64,000 bases of DNA from Halostagnicola sp. A-GB9-2 (GTDB taxonomy: Archaea; Halobacteriota; Halobacteria; Halobacteriales; Natrialbaceae). Shown here piece by piece: positions 44,438-52,273 of this stretch (positions are counted from its first letter, which is position 1; the number at the start of each line of letters is the position of its first letter). The notes under the pieces were generated by a model. The model did no database searches, had not been told where the DNA came from, and saw only the letters and a list, made by a program, of their open reading frames with translations. The position numbers were made by a program, and so were the translations under genes. Location: positions 186,001-250,000 of the forward strand of contig NZ_JASJOC010000006.1 in assembly GCF_030068615.1 (NCBI RefSeq). Direction: 5' to 3'.

Positions 44438-44728
44438 ATGACAGACGAAGTAGAGACGATAACCTTCTCGATAGAAGCTGACGACGGCGACACGGAGACC
44501 GTAACCGTTCCGGCGGGACTCGTCGACATGGTCGCCGAAGGCGGACAGACCCCCACGGAAACGCTCGGCGACGTCGCACTGCTTTCGTTCGCGAGCCGAG
44601 CCCACCACGTCGTCCACCACGGCGAGGGCACTGACGAGGAACTCGAGGCCCAGGAAGCTCGCGTGATGGACCTGTTCGAGGAGCGCTTCGGCGTCACCTT
44701 CGGCGAAGCGACCGGTCACCAGCACTGA
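44438..44728 (+). CDS. Conserved haloarchaeal protein, DUF7545-like
   Basis: This 96-residue acidic protein starts MTDEVETITFSIEADDGDTE and contains VTVPAGLVDMVAEGGQTPTE and LLSFASRAHHVVHHGEGTDE, with a histidine-rich patch and an HQH end. The family looks restricted to haloarchaea; function unknown. It is divergent from the antitoxin gene. The 273 bases after it hold an AT-rich promoter patch (around 44882) for the S14 gene. Confidence 0.75.
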   Translation: MTDEVETITFSIEADDGDTETVTVPAGLVDMVAEGGQTPTETLGDVALLSFASRAHHVVHHGEGTDEELEAQEARVMDLFEERFGVTFGEATGHQH

Positions 44729-45233: not shown

Positions 45234-45584
45234 ATGGGTGCGTTCGTCGGTCTCGCTCGAGAGCGCTTTAGCCTCCGCTCTGCCGCGGAACTCGCCGTGA
45301 TTCTCGGCATTGTCGCGCTCATTTTCGACATCTCGATCGGAAGCTACCTCTCGATTCTCGGCGTGATCGCGGCGATCCGTCTGGGTTACGTCTTCGCCGA
45401 CTCGCGCGGATTCAACCGCGACATCGTCTCGCTCGGATACATGCTACTCGGGACGGTCGTCATGGCCGTCATCATCGCCTTCGAGTCCGCGGGAATCGCG
45501 TATTACGCTCTGCTCTGTATTGGGGGCGTCAGTTCGGTCCTTCTCGCTCGAGCCGTCTTCGGTGGCGCCGGAGCAGACTCCTAA
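45234..45584 (+). CDS. Four-helix membrane protein
   Basis: This 116-residue protein has about four hydrophobic spans (AAELAVILGIVALIFDI, LSILGVIAAIRLGYVFA, LGYMLLGTVVMAVIIAF and YYALLCIGGVSSVLLARAVF). No transporter or enzyme motif is seen. It is the last plus-strand gene before the giant repeat protein, which is read toward it and ends 26 bases away. Confidence 0.75.
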   Translation: MGAFVGLARERFSLRSAAELAVILGIVALIFDISIGSYLSILGVIAAIRLGYVFADSRGFNRDIVSLGYMLLGTVVMAVIIAFESAGIAYYALLCIGGVSSVLLARAVFGGAGADS

Positions 45585-45610: not shown

Positions 45611-48600
45611 TTACCGGACCGTTGAAAGTATCGGATTCTCCTCGGGTGGTTCGCCTTCGGTACCGTCGTCCCCATCGGCACCGTCGTCGCCGTCAACTTC
45701 GACGCCGTCGCCGTTCTCCGGTGACGCTCCGGGTTCCTCAGGTTCGGCTTCATCCTCCGCCGGTGGTTCCTCTGGAGACTCGGCATCCGACGGACCGTCC
45801 GCTTCGTCGGGTTCGTCGTCGAACTCGTCCTCGACGACCCCGTCGTCCTCGGGCACCGGATCCTCCTCGTCCGCGGCTTCCTCGATCGTCACCGTCGCCG
45901 TATCGCTGTCGTCCTCGCTCGAGACGGTCGCGTCGTACTCGCTAGGCTCGAGATCAGACGTATCGACGGCGAACGCGACGATCTCACTGTCGCCCTCCCC
46001 GAGCGTCAGTTCGATCGAATCAGAGACGCCATCGATTTCGAGATCTATCGACTGCGCCCCCGTTTCCCCACCGACGTTTGCGATTTCGACCTCGAGAGTT
46101 AGCTCGTCGCCCTGCTCGACCGGTTCGATCGGCTCGAGGATGTCGACTGAGAACTCGGCGGGTTCGTCCGGATCGATCTCGCCCGCAGGCTCGGTCTCGA
46201 CGACAACGGGCTCGTCGTAGTCGTAGAATCCCATATCGACCACCCAGGCGAGTTGTTCGTCGTCGTTTTCGGGCGTCCAGTCGACGGTGAACGAGTTCGA
46301 ACCGGGCGCGAGTTCGTTCGGCGGTTCGTCCTCGGTCGTCCCCTCGAGTTCGCTCTCGACGATCAGGTCGGCGCCGTTGGGATTGTCGTAGCCGAAGGTG
46401 ACGTCGATCCCGTCGTCGGTCGGCGTCGTCTCCTCGACGTCGAGTTCGGGAAGCTCTGGCCGGACTTCTTCGACGCACTCGCCGGCTTCCGGATTCGAGT
46501 AGTCGATGCTCCCGGGAATCGCGTCGGGCGAACTGAAGCCGACAATCGTCGCACCGAAGTTCCCGCTCGGAACTTCGACGAGCGCCCCCTCCTCGGTCTC
46601 GGTGACGGCGAACTCCTCGCCGACTTCGAAGACGATCGTTCCTTCGAGCGGTGCCTCGATGTCTTCACCGACCGTGACGGAGTACTCGCCCAGCGTGTTT
46701 CCGATACCGCCGCTCTCGTAGAACGTCGTCGCGACGATAATCCGGTCGCCGTCCTCGAACGAGCCGGTCATCTCGGCTTGATAGCAGGTCGGGAACTCCG
46801 CCTCGAACTCGTCGGGAACGTCGTCGGGTTCGACCGTGTACTCGATGGTTTCGGTCTCGAGCACGTCGCCGTCGAATTCGGCGGTCTCGTCGTCCGGCTC
46901 CGCACCGTTCGCCTCACCATCGTCCGTCTGCGCATCGTCCGCTTCCGCCCCGTTTTCAACCCCATCGACTTCCGCCGCCGAAACGACGTTGACGTCGAGG
47001 GTGGCGTTCTCCTCGAGGGGTGGCTCGAGCACGAGCGTCTCGTCGGTGGCCGTTTCGTTCGCCTCGTACGGTCCGCTTGCGGCTAGCTCGGCCCCTTCCT
47101 CGTCGGTTACGGTCAGCCCGTACTCGACGGTCGCGCTCGCCTGGTCGACCGCGAGGGTCGAGCCGTTCCCCGTCTGATCGACGACCGAGAGCGTCGCTTC
47201 GGGCTCGGCAGGCGGGTCGGGCTCCTCGTCTTCGAGCGCGTACTCGATCGACTCACTCGCGAGTTCGGTTTCGTTCTCGGCGTCGAGAACCGAGACATCG
47301 ACGGTCGTGTTCTCCTCAATCGGCGGCTCGAGGGAAATCGTCTCGTTCGTCACCGGTTCGTTCGCTTCGAACGGGCCGATTTCTGCCGTCTCGCCGTCGT
47401 ACTCGGCGGCGATCGCGTACTCGACGGACGCGTTCGCTTCGTCGACCGTGAGTGTCTCGCCGTCGCCCTCCTGATCGGTCACCGAGAGCGTCGCCTCGGG
47501 CTCAGCGGGTGGGTCCGGCTCGTCCTCTACGGTGACGAACGCGCTGTCGAGCACCGGTGTGCCACCCTGGGTGACGTAGGGCTCGTCGTCCTCGCCGCCG
47601 CTGTCGACGTACTGGAAGGTTTGGTCGTCGGTCGTATCGTGGTGGACGGCCGCAACGATGGGGCCGCTCTCCTCGAGCGGTTCGTCGAGGTCGATCTGGA
47701 TGTCCTCGTAGTTGCCCGACTCGAGGTACTCGGAGTGGCCGATGACGCCCGCCGGATCGACGCCGACATCGACTCCGTCGTAGACCGCGACGAAGCCGCC
47801 CTCCGAGAGCGAGACGCTGTCGACGGTGACGTTCTCACCGGCACTTTCCTGATCGGCGAGGCTAATCGACGCCTCGCCCTCGAGTTCGTCGATCTCCTCG
47901 ACGATCTGGACGACCTCCACCTCGACGTACTGGACGATCTGGGCTTCGTCGTCGATTCCCTCCGCGACTGCGTACGCAACCGCGTCACCGGCCGCCGCTT
48001 GGGTCAGGGACTGCACCTGCGAGACGCTGATCTGCTGGTACTGGATCACGCTCGCGGCCTCCTGGCAGGCGCTCGAGGCGGCGGTCTGGATCTGCTCGAT
48101 GGACGCTTCCTGATGTTGGGAGAGCGCGCCGCTCGAGGCGCCTTCGGCCAGCGCCTGTACTTGCGTCACCTCGACGGCTTGCTGCTGGAGGACCGCGCCC
48201 TCTCCGGCGCCGAACGCCGCCGCTTGGATCTGTTCGACCTGGACGATCTGTTGCTGGATTGCCGTCTCGACGGCACCCTTCGCCGCGCCCGTCGCCGCAG
48301 CCTGAATCTGCGTGACCGAAATCTCCTGTTGCTGGACGAGCACGCCCTGTCCCGCGCCGTCCGCGGCGGACTGGATCTGTTCGATTGAGGCCTCCTGGCT
48401 CTGGGCGATCGCACCCTTTGCCGAGCCGAAGGAGGCTTCCTGTACCTGCGTGATCGAAATCCGCTGTACCTGCTCGACGCTGACCGTCTGGAGCTGTTTC
48501 AGCGGACCCATGCCCGCACCGTGGGCCGCGGCCTGCGTCTGCTCGACGCTCACTGCTTGCTGTTGGACGAGCGCCCCTTTCGCGGCCCCCGTGGCGGCTT

Positions 48601-49531
48601 TCTGGATCTGTTTGACCGTTACCTCCTGTTGCTGTTCGACCTCAAGTCGCTGATCCTGTTCGAGCGCCTCGGCGGTGCTCCCCTCTATCGCGCCGCTCGC
48701 CGCACCCGCCGCCGCGTACTGGACGTGCTCGAGGGTGACCTGCTGGCGCTGTTCGGCCGTGATCTTCTGGTACTGCTCGAGAACGCCGTAGGCCGATCCC
48801 TGTGCGGCCTCCTGGATCTTCGGCGCTCGATCGACGCCTTTCTCGCCGGCTTCCGCGGCCGCCCCGGCGGCCGCGCCGACGGTTGCGACCTGTATCTGTT
48901 CGACCGTCACCCGCTGGTGCTGTGCCATCGCGCCGTGGGTCGCCCCCCAGGTCGCACTCTGCATTTGACTCGCGTTGACCGTCTGGTACTGCGCTAACGC
49001 GCCGCTGGTCGCTCCGCCTACGGCGGCCTGGACCTGCTCAGCCTCGACAGCCTGCGATTGCATCAGCGAGCCGTGGACCGCACCTTTGGTCGCCTCCTGG
49101 ATCTGTTCGGCTTGTGCCTCCTGATACTGGGCCGCGGACTGGCTCGCTCCCTCGAGGGCCGCCGTCTGCTGTTCCTGCGTGATCTCGACGCCCTGGGCCT
49201 GTGCGAGTTCGATACCCTCTTCGACGCCCGCTTCGACGGCATTTTCGTCCTCTTGTGCGAGCGCTCCCGCATCGACCGCCGCGGTTTCCGGTTCGACGGC
49301 GGCCATCGAGACGCCCTCGAGGTCAGCCGCCCCCGTCACGACGGATTCGCTTTCGTCGAGTTGCCCGACCTCGGCGTCGTCGATGGTGCCGCCCATTTCG
49401 ACGCCGTCATCCGCTTCGTCATCGGGAGTCTGCTCGAACAAACCCCCGCCCCCGAGAAACGGCAAGGCGACGACACTGACAACCATCGAGACAGCGACGA
49501 GTGCTGTGAGAAGAAGCGTCGCTCGCTTCAT
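45611..49531 (-). CDS. Giant exported Gln/Ala-repeat protein with DUF7282-like and CARDB-like domains
   Basis: This 1306-residue protein starts with a Sec signal (MKRATLLLTALVAVSMVVSV). Residues about 112-525 are sixteen units of 23 residues (some 31), consensus roughly xVxVEQIQxAAxGAAxGAxxQxQ, likely helical and amphipathic. Residues about 555-660 look like DUF7282. Two near-copies starting EPDPPAEPEATLSV follow, then a cysteine-containing region and a CARDB-like domain (VEQGDELTLEVEIANVGGET). The tail is very acidic and no C-terminal anchor is seen. Probably extracellular or wall-associated, perhaps fibrous. No enzyme motif was found. Confidence 0.82.
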   Translation of the reverse strand: MKRATLLLTALVAVSMVVSVVALPFLGGGGLFEQTPDDEADDGVEMGGTIDDAEVGQLDESESVVTGAADLEGVSMAAVEPETAAVDAGALAQEDENAVEAGVEEGIELAQAQGVEITQEQQTAALEGASQSAAQYQEAQAEQIQEATKGAVHGSLMQSQAVEAEQVQAAVGGATSGALAQYQTVNASQMQSATWGATHGAMAQHQRVTVEQIQVATVGAAAGAAAEAGEKGVDRAPKIQEAAQGSAYGVLEQYQKITAEQRQQVTLEHVQYAAAGAASGAIEGSTAEALEQDQRLEVEQQQEVTVKQIQKAATGAAKGALVQQQAVSVEQTQAAAHGAGMGPLKQLQTVSVEQVQRISITQVQEASFGSAKGAIAQSQEASIEQIQSAADGAGQGVLVQQQEISVTQIQAAATGAAKGAVETAIQQQIVQVEQIQAAAFGAGEGAVLQQQAVEVTQVQALAEGASSGALSQHQEASIEQIQTAASSACQEAASVIQYQQISVSQVQSLTQAAAGDAVAYAVAEGIDDEAQIVQYVEVEVVQIVEEIDELEGEASISLADQESAGENVTVDSVSLSEGGFVAVYDGVDVGVDPAGVIGHSEYLESGNYEDIQIDLDEPLEESGPIVAAVHHDTTDDQTFQYVDSGGEDDEPYVTQGGTPVLDSAFVTVEDEPDPPAEPEATLSVTDQEGDGETLTVDEANASVEYAIAAEYDGETAEIGPFEANEPVTNETISLEPPIEENTTVDVSVLDAENETELASESIEYALEDEEPDPPAEPEATLSVVDQTGNGSTLAVDQASATVEYGLTVTDEEGAELAASGPYEANETATDETLVLEPPLEENATLDVNVVSAAEVDGVENGAEADDAQTDDGEANGAEPDDETAEFDGDVLETETIEYTVEPDDVPDEFEAEFPTCYQAEMTGSFEDGDRIIVATTFYESGGIGNTLGEYSVTVGEDIEAPLEGTIVFEVGEEFAVTETEEGALVEVPSGNFGATIVGFSSPDAIPGSIDYSNPEAGECVEEVRPELPELDVEETTPTDDGIDVTFGYDNPNGADLIVESELEGTTEDEPPNELAPGSNSFTVDWTPENDDEQLAWVVDMGFYDYDEPVVVETEPAGEIDPDEPAEFSVDILEPIEPVEQGDELTLEVEIANVGGETGAQSIDLEIDGVSDSIELTLGEGDSEIVAFAVDTSDLEPSEYDATVSSEDDSDTATVTIEEAADEEDPVPEDDGVVEDEFDDEPDEADGPSDAESPEEPPAEDEAEPEEPGASPENGDGVEVDGDDGADGDDGTEGEPPEENPILSTVR
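47957..49198 (-). repeat. Sixteen-unit 69/93-base coding repeat in the giant protein
   Basis: The DNA encodes sixteen diverged 23-residue units. Three of them (units 7, 8 and 10) carry an extra 8-residue half-unit such as RISITQVQ. The bases have drifted while the Q-x-Q and GAxxGA positions are kept, so selection acts on the protein and the array is old. Confidence 0.85.
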
Positions 49532-50103: not shown

Positions 50104-50117
50104 AGAAGAGGGTGGGT

Positions 50118-50693
50118 ATGGAAACCGAACAGGGGTCGGTCGACCTCGTCGAGGGGGACGTGGTCCGGTCGTTTGCTCGAGCGGCGTTACTCGCGGCGCT
50201 CATGGGGGCGACCGCTTTCATCGCGATACCGATTTCGGGGGTCCCGGGAACGCTCCAGATGCTCGTCGTCTTCCTCGCTGGGCTGTATCTGGGTCCAGGG
50301 TGGGGAGCGTTCGCGATAATTCTCTACCTTCTTGCGGGCGGACTCGGTGCGCCGGTCTTCTCCGGGTTTTCCGCGGGCCCTGGCGTTCTACTCGGGCCGC
50401 ACGGTGGATTTCTCCTGACGTTTCCCGTCGGTGCCCTACTCGTCGGGTCGATCGTTCATCGCGGACGCGAACTCCGGGATCCGGCCGCCGTTGCCCTTCC
50501 GATCGTGATACTCGGTCTCGTTGCCGCGACCATCGTCGTTTATCTGGCCGGTTTCACCTGGTACGCGTGGGTGACGGAAACCTCACTACCAGAAGCGTTC
50601 ACTATCGTCGCACTCCCGTTGATACCGGGTGATCTGCTCAAGATGGCCGCCGCAATCGCCATCGTTCGCTCCGGCGTTATCGACACGGTGTGA
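50118..50693 (+). CDS. bioY: Biotin ECF transporter substrate-binding protein BioY
   Basis: This 191-residue protein is the S component of the biotin uptake system, with about six membrane spans. Seen: ALMGATAFIAIPISGVPGTL, LQMLVVFLAGLYLGPGWGAF, LLAGGLGAPVFSGFSAGPGV and LLGPHGGFLLTFPVGALLVG; the last two contain the BioY binding-pocket pattern. ATG at 50118 is preferred over GTG at 50112. bioM and bioN follow, and a BirA operator precedes it. Confidence 0.95.
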   Translation: METEQGSVDLVEGDVVRSFARAALLAALMGATAFIAIPISGVPGTLQMLVVFLAGLYLGPGWGAFAIILYLLAGGLGAPVFSGFSAGPGVLLGPHGGFLLTFPVGALLVGSIVHRGRELRDPAAVALPIVILGLVAATIVVYLAGFTWYAWVTETSLPEAFTIVALPLIPGDLLKMAAAIAIVRSGVIDTV

Positions 50694-50733
50694 CCGAGAC
50701 CACGCAACGAATTCGCCCGTACAAACTGTATCC

Positions 50734-51435
50734 ATGATCGAACTCCGATCCGTCACGTACGGCTTCGACGATCACGCCGTCCTCGAGGAGTGCACTCTCG
50801 AGATCGAAGACGGCGAGTTCGTCCTCCTCGCGGGAGCGAATGGGAGCGGAAAGACGACCTTGCTCCGGCACTGCAACGGGTTGCTAACGCCTGACGACGG
50901 CGAAGTGCTCGTCGACGGCGTTTCGGTCGCCGAAAACCCCGTCGCCGCCCGAACCGCCGTCGGGATGGTGTTCCAACACCCGCGAGATCAGTTTGTCTCG
51001 TCGACCGTCGGCAATGATATCGCGTTCGGCCCCGAAAACCTCGGTCTCGAGCGAGAGGAGATCAACCGCCGCGTCGAGACCGCACTCGAAGCGGTACATC
51101 TCGAGGGTCGGGGGGATGACCGCATCGATACGCTTTCGGGCGGCGAGCAATCACGGGTCGCCATCGCCGGCGCGCTGGCGATGGAACCGACGCATCTCCT
51201 GCTGGACGAACCGTTTACCGGTCTCGACGCACCGTCGCGTGACTCCGTTCTCGACCGGCTCGAGTCACTCTCGTTGGCTGGAACGGGGATCGTCCTCGCG
51301 ACGCACGACCTCCGAGATGTCGCCACTCTCGCGGACCGAATCATCGTGATGCAAGACGGGCACATTCTCGTCGACGAACCGCCAGCAGTGGCCCTCGAGT
51401 TGCTGGCCGACCTCGAGATTCGAGTGCCGGCATGA
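50734..51435 (+). CDS. bioM: ECF transporter ATPase, biotin system (BioM/CbiO-like)
   Basis: This 233-residue ABC ATPase powers the biotin transporter. Seen: Walker A AGANGSGKTTLLRH (near residue 33), Q-loop VFQHPRDQFVSS, signature LSGGEQSRVAIAGALA, Walker B HLLLDEPFTGLD and the H-switch LATHDLRDV. The Q-loop sequence is typical of ECF-type ATPases. It lies 40 bases after bioY and 133 bases before bioN. Confidence 0.94.
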   Translation: MIELRSVTYGFDDHAVLEECTLEIEDGEFVLLAGANGSGKTTLLRHCNGLLTPDDGEVLVDGVSVAENPVAARTAVGMVFQHPRDQFVSSTVGNDIAFGPENLGLEREEINRRVETALEAVHLEGRGDDRIDTLSGGEQSRVAIAGALAMEPTHLLLDEPFTGLDAPSRDSVLDRLESLSLAGTGIVLATHDLRDVATLADRIIVMQDGHILVDEPPAVALELLADLEIRVPA

Positions 51436-51568
51436 TCGGTGGCACGAATCGCTGCCTGACGACCGGCCCGCGTACTCACTCGAGTACTGAACGCAGTATT
51501 TTCCTGGATACCGAGGGAATGGTGGAGACTCGACTTTCACTCAGCAATTCTCGAGGTGATTGGGGCGG

Positions 51569-52273
51569 ATGCTGACCTACGAACCCGACGACACGTTCGC
51601 CCATCGGCTCGACCCGCGCTCGAAGCTCGCCGTCCAGATCGGGTTCGCCGTCACGGCGCTGGCTCACACCACGCCGCGGGCGCTGGTCGTCTTCACCGCC
51701 TTCACGATTCTCGGGCTCGCGGCCGCGGGCGTCCCGCTTTGGCGAGCGTTGTACGGCTATCGGTTCGCGTTGCCGATACTGGCGGCTGCGCCGGTCATTT
51801 CGATGCTGACCATCGGCACACCCTGGCTCGTCCCGGCCGACGGCGTCGATCCCGCGCTGGCGAGTTACCGGGTGCTGTTGATCCTCCTGTTCAGTGCGGC
51901 ATACGTCAGGTCGACGCCCGCACGCGACTCTCGAGCGGCTATTCAACGAACGGTTCCCGGAAAACCCGGCCAACTGCTCGGCATGGGTGTCGGGTTGGTG
52001 TTCCGGTTCGTTCCGCTTCTTTTGGCGGATCTCCGTCGCATTCGTCAGGCGATGACCGCCCGTCTTGGCTCCGAACGAAGCGTACTCGACCGTGTCAATC
52101 GGATCGGCGTTCTCGGACTCTCGAGGGCGTTCACTCGAGCTGACCGGCTATCGGTCGCATTGCAGGCACGATGTTTCTCGTGGAATCCGACGCTTCCCGC
52201 GCTTTCGTTCTCGAAACTCGATTGGGCCGTGTGCGCGTTCGGAGCCGTCCTCGGACTTACGGCGGTGCTTTGA
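51569..52273 (+). CDS. bioN: ECF transporter transmembrane protein BioN (EcfT)
   Basis: This 234-residue protein is the T component that couples ATPase to S component. Seen: early PRSKLAVQ (typical EcfT entrance), four to five hydrophobic spans, and two Ala-Arg-type coupling motifs, TARLGSERSV and the later helix RADRLSVALQARCFSW, in the place expected for EcfT. ATG at 51569 is preferred over TTG at 51560. It completes bioYMN. Confidence 0.92.
   Translation: MLTYEPDDTFAHRLDPRSKLAVQIGFAVTALAHTTPRALVVFTAFTILGLAAAGVPLWRALYGYRFALPILAAAPVISMLTIGTPWLVPADGVDPALASYRVLLILLFSAAYVRSTPARDSRAAIQRTVPGKPGQLLGMGVGLVFRFVPLLLADLRRIRQAMTARLGSERSVLDRVNRIGVLGLSRAFTRADRLSVALQARCFSWNPTLPALSFSKLDWAVCAFGAVLGLTAVL

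Follow-up and report, generated by a model that had tools for sequence, protein, structure and literature searches.

A 16-unit Gln/Gly-Ala repeat domain in a giant protein of Halostagnicola with an export signal

What kind of protein is encoded by the minus-strand open reading frame at positions 45611–49531 of the 64,000-nucleotide stretch of Halostagnicola DNA (haloarchaea, family Natrialbaceae) analyzed here (the window), and what might a domain built of Gln-rich units do outside the cell? An earlier note, made from the sequence alone, had described it as a giant repeat surface protein. We examined its layout, conservation, distribution and predicted fold, and weighed a structural role against other readings of the repeat.

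Layout of the giant protein and its repeat unit

The frame opens with ATG and encodes 1306 residues, which can be divided into a repeat domain, framed by two caps, and a long series of C-terminal modules (Table 1). The signal peptide proposed earlier is borne out by an N-terminal hydrophobic stretch, which in this copy carries neither a lipobox nor a twin Arg; as no lipobox Cys is found within the first 100 residues, the protein does not qualify as an archaeal lipoprotein. At the C terminus, where the earlier note had seen no anchor or sorting motif, our scan likewise shows no hydrophobic stretch or PGF motif, and the complete Natrialbaceae orthologues scanned also lack the PGF motif with its hydrophobic stretch. 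A substrate of archaeosortase A (PGF-CTERM) carries a C-terminal PGF motif, a hydrophobic stretch and basic residues (PMC7157517); with the first two missing, this assignment was rejected. Export of the giant protein to a location outside the cell is well supported; in this species, where the protein is devoid of an anchor, it may be displayed on the surface or released.

Table 1 Features of the giant protein and their coordinates in the window
Feature	Residues	Position	Strand	Remarks
Whole gene	1–1306	45611–49531	−	1306 aa
Export signal	1–27	49451–49531	−	Hydrophobic core, then family motif ALPxLGGG
Variable acidic linker	28–95	49247–49450	−	Composition, dN/dS
N-terminal repeat-domain cap, GVEEGIELAQAQGV	96–115	49187–49246	−	Kept in distant relatives too
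16 units of 23 residues	116–522	47966–49186	−	Autocorrelation, weight matrix
Extra 8-residue module KITAEQRQ	256–263	48743–48766	−	Like unit positions 1–8; unit spacing
Two extra 8-residue modules, AEALEQDQ and RLEVEQQQ	287–302	48626–48673	−	Sequence, unit spacing
Extra 8-residue module TVSVEQVQ	349–356	48464–48487	−	Sequence, unit spacing
C-terminal repeat-domain cap	523–552	47876–47965	−	Predicted helical
DUF7282 (PF23951)	554–667	47531–47872	−	Pfam E 2.2e-34; predicted β-sandwich
Two tandem β-type modules, starting EPEATLSVxDQ	677–767 and 776–900	46832–47503	−	
Cys-bracketed module (C916, C1019) and next module	901–1125	46157–46831	−	
CARDB-like domain (likely)	1126–1222	45866–46156	−	Pfam E 0.0019, sub-threshold
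Acidic tail	1223–1306	45614–45865	−	44% D/E; fast evolving; no anchor

The β-rich domains and acidic tail described earlier are both recovered. The first of these domains is a member of DUF7282, with a score of 118.5 bits against a Pfam gathering cut-off of 27 (residues 554–667); further proteins encoded in this genome and in its relatives contain the domain as well. The match to CARDB (PF07705, residues 1120–1225) reaches 18.8 bits against a gathering score of 22.7, below curated membership; this region is likely a divergent CARDB-like domain. The EPEATLSVxDQ modules vary in copy number among species.

The repeat domain, the only copy of the Gln/Gly-Ala repeat in this genome, is strongly periodic. 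BLOSUM autocorrelation of residues 96–550 has its top lag at 23 residues, with a value of 0.85 (best value at any lag in 300 shuffles, 0.117), and side peaks at lags 49, 54, 46, 8, 72 and 31. A weight matrix of 23 positions, derived from these same units and their orthologues, detects exactly 16 units with scores of 18 to 64, the number counted in the earlier note. On the shuffled domain the maximum averages 5.4, with a single highest value of 29.2; the three weakest units (24.7, 18.2 and 23.8) fall under this value, and their positions recur in some orthologues. The unit consensus is xVTVEQIQxAAxGAAxGALxQxQ, in which G13 (97%), G17 (94%), A10 (84%), Q8 (83%) and Q6 (80%) are the conserved positions, and positions 9, 12, 16 and 20 are variable. 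Successive units are spaced by 22, 23, 23, 23, 26, 31, 39, 23, 31, 23, 23, 26, 23, 23 and 25 residues, the spacings of 31 and 39 being 23 plus one or two copies of the first 8 residues of the unit. The four extra modules indeed resemble positions 1–8 (xVxVEQxQ), AEALEQDQ the least. The 8-residue sub-unit deduced earlier from an alternation of 23- and 31-residue units is thus real; the strict alternation is not, a spacing of 31 occurring twice and one of 39 once, at three insertion sites.

Tandem Repeats Finder reports no array in the DNA, which indicates an old repeat that exists at the protein level. Gln makes up 18.6% of the repeat domain (residues 96–547) against a median of 2.7% in the acidic open reading frames of the window, whereas acidic residues amount to 11.5%, versus 25–44% elsewhere in the protein.

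Conservation and distribution of the repeat

Orthologues were found in most Natrialbaceae genomes searched, several genera or species lacking one; the nearest named relative among the loci compared is Halostagnicola sp. A56 (L074). Over 19 orthologues, the repeat domain spans 448–456 residues and is the best conserved part of the protein, with a mean majority identity of 0.76, compared with 0.68 for DUF7282 and 0.29–0.67 for other regions. The dN/dS ratios in same-genus pairs are 0.18–0.24 for this domain, against 0.45–0.70 for the acidic linker and 0.27–0.74 for the tail. The matrix counts 14–16 units in Natrialbaceae members, a range that probably stems from where the score cut-off falls for the weak terminal units. 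Between species, units that share a position have 71% identity, against 40% for those inside one protein, and most Natrialbaceae units match best the unit of the same index in the window protein, which points to an old and static array. Across Natrialbaceae, both the number of units and their register are kept, in contrast to repeats that grow and shrink.

In almost every locus read from Natrialbaceae, the giant gene is divergent from bioY-ecfA-ecfT and flanked on the other side by a small conserved DUF7545 gene and DUF5799, a conserved neighborhood that argues for vertical inheritance. It offers no hint as to function, since a transporter operon read in the opposite direction may have nothing to do with the giant gene; the neighbors are metabolic or of unknown type, and none is tied to adhesion or biofilm. 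In the window, bioY, ecfA and a probable ecfT occupy 50112–52273 (+), and the upstream region that they share with the giant gene is conserved. The DUF7545 gene (44438–44728, +; 96 residues) is crossed by two longer antisense frames that look spurious. Immediately downstream of the giant gene, and convergent with it, lies a hydrophobic frame of 116 residues (45234–45584, +), which matches no Pfam family above cut-off and was not found in related loci. An Rfam scan of 43–52 kb gave no match.

The repeat matches no family in Pfam, NCBIfam or PHROGs, NCBIfam has none for the giant protein as a whole, and the literature searched contained neither a paper naming DUF7282 nor a description of the repeat. 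In the searches made here, the repeat was found only in haloarchaea, beyond Natrialbaceae in Halorussus, Haladaptatus, Haloarculaceae, Halobaculum and Halomicrococcus, and a survey of 197 genomes across the phylum gave matches confined to the same order; the genome contig scan used two peptide patterns only, so that divergent members can be missed. Viral contigs and phage records yielded no relative, which leaves an origin from phage fibers unsupported.

Relatives outside Natrialbaceae follow largely the same spacing blueprint (22/23, 23, 23, 26 ... 26, 23, 23, 25), with no 8-residue insertion in L124 and one in L079. What follows the repeat is variable: three DUF7282 domains with Thr-rich linkers in L081, a right-handed β-helix (NosD-type) in L077 and L079, or Thr-rich sequence alone. 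Some of these relatives (L081, L082, L128 and L129) end in a C-terminal membrane segment, an arrangement that would put the repeat domain at the end farthest from the membrane. With the same repeat on such varied stalks, the domain behaves like a head module shuffled by recombination. The Cys-bracketed C-terminal modules, for their part, also occur in a second giant exported haloarchaeal family that has no Gln repeat, and the remainder of the protein would thus represent a standard haloarchaeal exterior architecture. Members of this second family (L115 to L119, e.g. L115:2568–5954, +) start with MRRRRYL, which is twin-arginine-like, and contain multiple CARDB-like Ig domains. The annotated plasmid-borne relatives of the giant protein are named "hypothetical protein"; in the plasmid-borne relative from Halobaculum marinum (L129:7806–11747, +), TSP3 repeats lie between the Gln repeat and the membrane segment. 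A paralogue of 556 residues (L123:4562–6229, +, in G008) begins with a twin-arginine signal and has a tail that is acidic and Gly-rich; true export by the Tat pathway would mean that its repeat folds beforehand.

Predicted fold of the repeat domain

From the period, the earlier note had suggested long amphipathic helices or a solenoid or fiber. We modeled residues 85–675 with AlphaFold2, using an alignment of 46 rows. The best model has a mean pLDDT of 83.5, often above 90 within residues 95–255, and is thus ordered; in each unit it places one helix of about 16 residues followed by an extended linker of about 7, giving an all-helical repeat domain next to a DUF7282 β-sandwich. A second run on residues 304–552 gave a best model with a mean pLDDT of 64, helical across the better-scored two thirds. 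The remaining four models scored 38–59 in the first run, and four of five fell below 40 in the second, for which reason the fold is provisional. DSSP assigns no strand to the repeat region in the models of either run. Together with the 23-residue period, the best model supports a solenoid- or helix-like repeat, and the helical arrangement that it predicts is the most likely one.

Taken across the whole unit, conservation does not discriminate between a helix and a strand period. Tested by segment, it alternates over the linker with a period of two (p 0.024), while over positions 8–21 neither period is significant. An α/β solenoid would account for this pattern, about 16 residues of each unit forming a helix and about 7 an extended return, with parallel helices on one side and a single parallel β-sheet on the other, in the geometry of a leucine-rich repeat (LRR) and not its sequence, and with a protein or glycan as its ligand. 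The helix boundaries of the AlphaFold2 model agree with it, as does standard geometry, by which a 16-residue helix and a 7-residue extended stretch are similar in length, and significant period-two conservation is restricted to the linker. The lack of modeled strands, and of any match to LRR or other solenoid profiles, nevertheless makes this arrangement unlikely.

The same alternation could be read in terms of a curli-like functional amyloid, in which QxQxVxVxQxQ strands stack in register through Gln ladders, with GAxxGA as the turn, and seed matrix fibers. Curlin itself has Gln ladders, and the insertions, even-numbered at 8 residues, would preserve the alternation. Putative amyloid staining has been described in biofilms of Haloferax volcanii (PMC4180959). 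Against this, the best models of both runs are helical, and a Pfam search of 19 repeat domains, with matches accepted up to E 10, lists no curlin profile, although HMMER filters may lose very weak matches. In addition, the 26-residue intervals add three residues and break strand parity, and a fixed copy number with unit-by-unit divergence is less to be expected if the amyloid is a simple one stacked in register. We consider this form quite improbable, although it and the α/β solenoid are both live rivals to the helical model.

Most matches in the fold comparison were to TALE proteins or to designed helical repeats, with low TM-scores (0.1–0.4). The designed flat helical repeat 8ugc gave a Foldseek E of 7e-5 and VIA Z values of 7.8–8.9 (rmsd 8–9.6), values that may reflect no more than a layout shared by helical repeats in general. 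Among natural proteins, significant Foldseek E-values were confined to TALE chains, which align at TM-scores of just about 0.1, so that the fold points to no ligand class. No hit was obtained by Foldseek in BFVD at E ≤ 0.001, nor by a profile search of the repeat domain against PDB sequences at E up to 1; by sequence and by fold, the repeats thus have no clear match to a characterized natural fold. Neither such a match nor a model showing disorder only, the two outcomes that would have spoken against the earlier note, was obtained. The resemblance to TALE repeats and 8ugc, weak as it is, would suit a receptor whose helical repeat reads a linear polymer or glycan, one element per unit, its length being fixed for that reason; the constant length and unit identity speak for it too. 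As the similarity may be generic, and as the presumed exposed stripe is formed by the variable positions, with no conserved binding stripe besides the Gln pairs, there is but a slim chance that the domain is such a receptor.

Proposed role and comparison with known systems

The best explanation, which we advance tentatively and at somewhat less than an even chance, is an adhesive or scaffold role at the cell exterior, in the envelope or biofilm matrix. The giant protein would be an exported, vertically inherited structural protein. After what its signal suggests to be Sec-type export, the N-terminal domain would fold into a rigid rod of fixed length, most likely with one short helix per unit, adjacent helices packing against each other by their GxxxG and Ala faces, which hardly vary, and the extended QxQxVxV linkers, with their Gln residues, running along the edges of the rod. 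Behind it, the β-sandwich domains (DUF7282, the two EPEATLSV modules, the Cys module and the CARDB-like domain) may act as a spacer, and the D/E-rich tail would keep the C terminus soluble in brine. Rich in Gln, the repeat domain is only weakly acidic within a protein that is otherwise strongly so, and its surfaces are therefore probably covered. The cover could be further copies of the protein, self-associated in a filament or sheet, other envelope proteins packed against it or a linear polymer, and we infer a binding role of the domain from this. The near-constant copy number and layout across Natrialbaceae point to a fixed-length scaffold or sticky rod, and such a role agrees with the export signal, with the fusion of the repeat to varied modules and with the membrane segments at the C termini of relatives.

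A bolder proposal, which we hold to be doubtful, is that the QxQ/GAxxGA unit represents an undescribed haloarchaeal repeat fold, in which GxxxG-packed helical units of 23 residues build a rod with a constant 16 units; such rods would assemble outside the cell into a fiber or sheet that withstands near-saturated salt although its surface is not strongly acidic. Whereas the proteins that haloarchaea export normally have a very acidic composition, this conserved domain of about 450 residues relies on Gln, Ala and Gly, with its unit number kept across the family and its stalks varied. The repeat domain merits a family of its own and is a tractable structural target. Should it assemble, it would become a candidate for a component of the matrix or scaffold at haloarchaeal surfaces, and it might serve as a building block that is stable in salt.

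When compared with designed helical repeats (8ugc FD15, DHR series) and TALE proteins, the modeled domain shares short repeated helices and a weak structural similarity; these have two helices per repeat unit, are designs or DNA-binding proteins, and show no sequence relation to the repeat. Curli and other functional amyloids are similar in export, in Gln at regular positions and in unit length, the CsgA unit having about 22–23 residues, and differ from the giant protein in its GxxxG and Ala-rich half unit, predicted helix, large β-domain tails and lack of a curlin profile match. Like the haloarchaeal S-layer glycoprotein and other PGF-CTERM surface proteins, the giant protein is large, acidic and exported, but it has no PGF motif, hydrophobic segment or basic C terminus. 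Finally, it shares with the haloarchaeal exported proteins of the DUF7282 family (PF23951) one such domain by curated score; the family name covers only 114 of its 1306 residues and leaves the 16-unit repeat domain outside.
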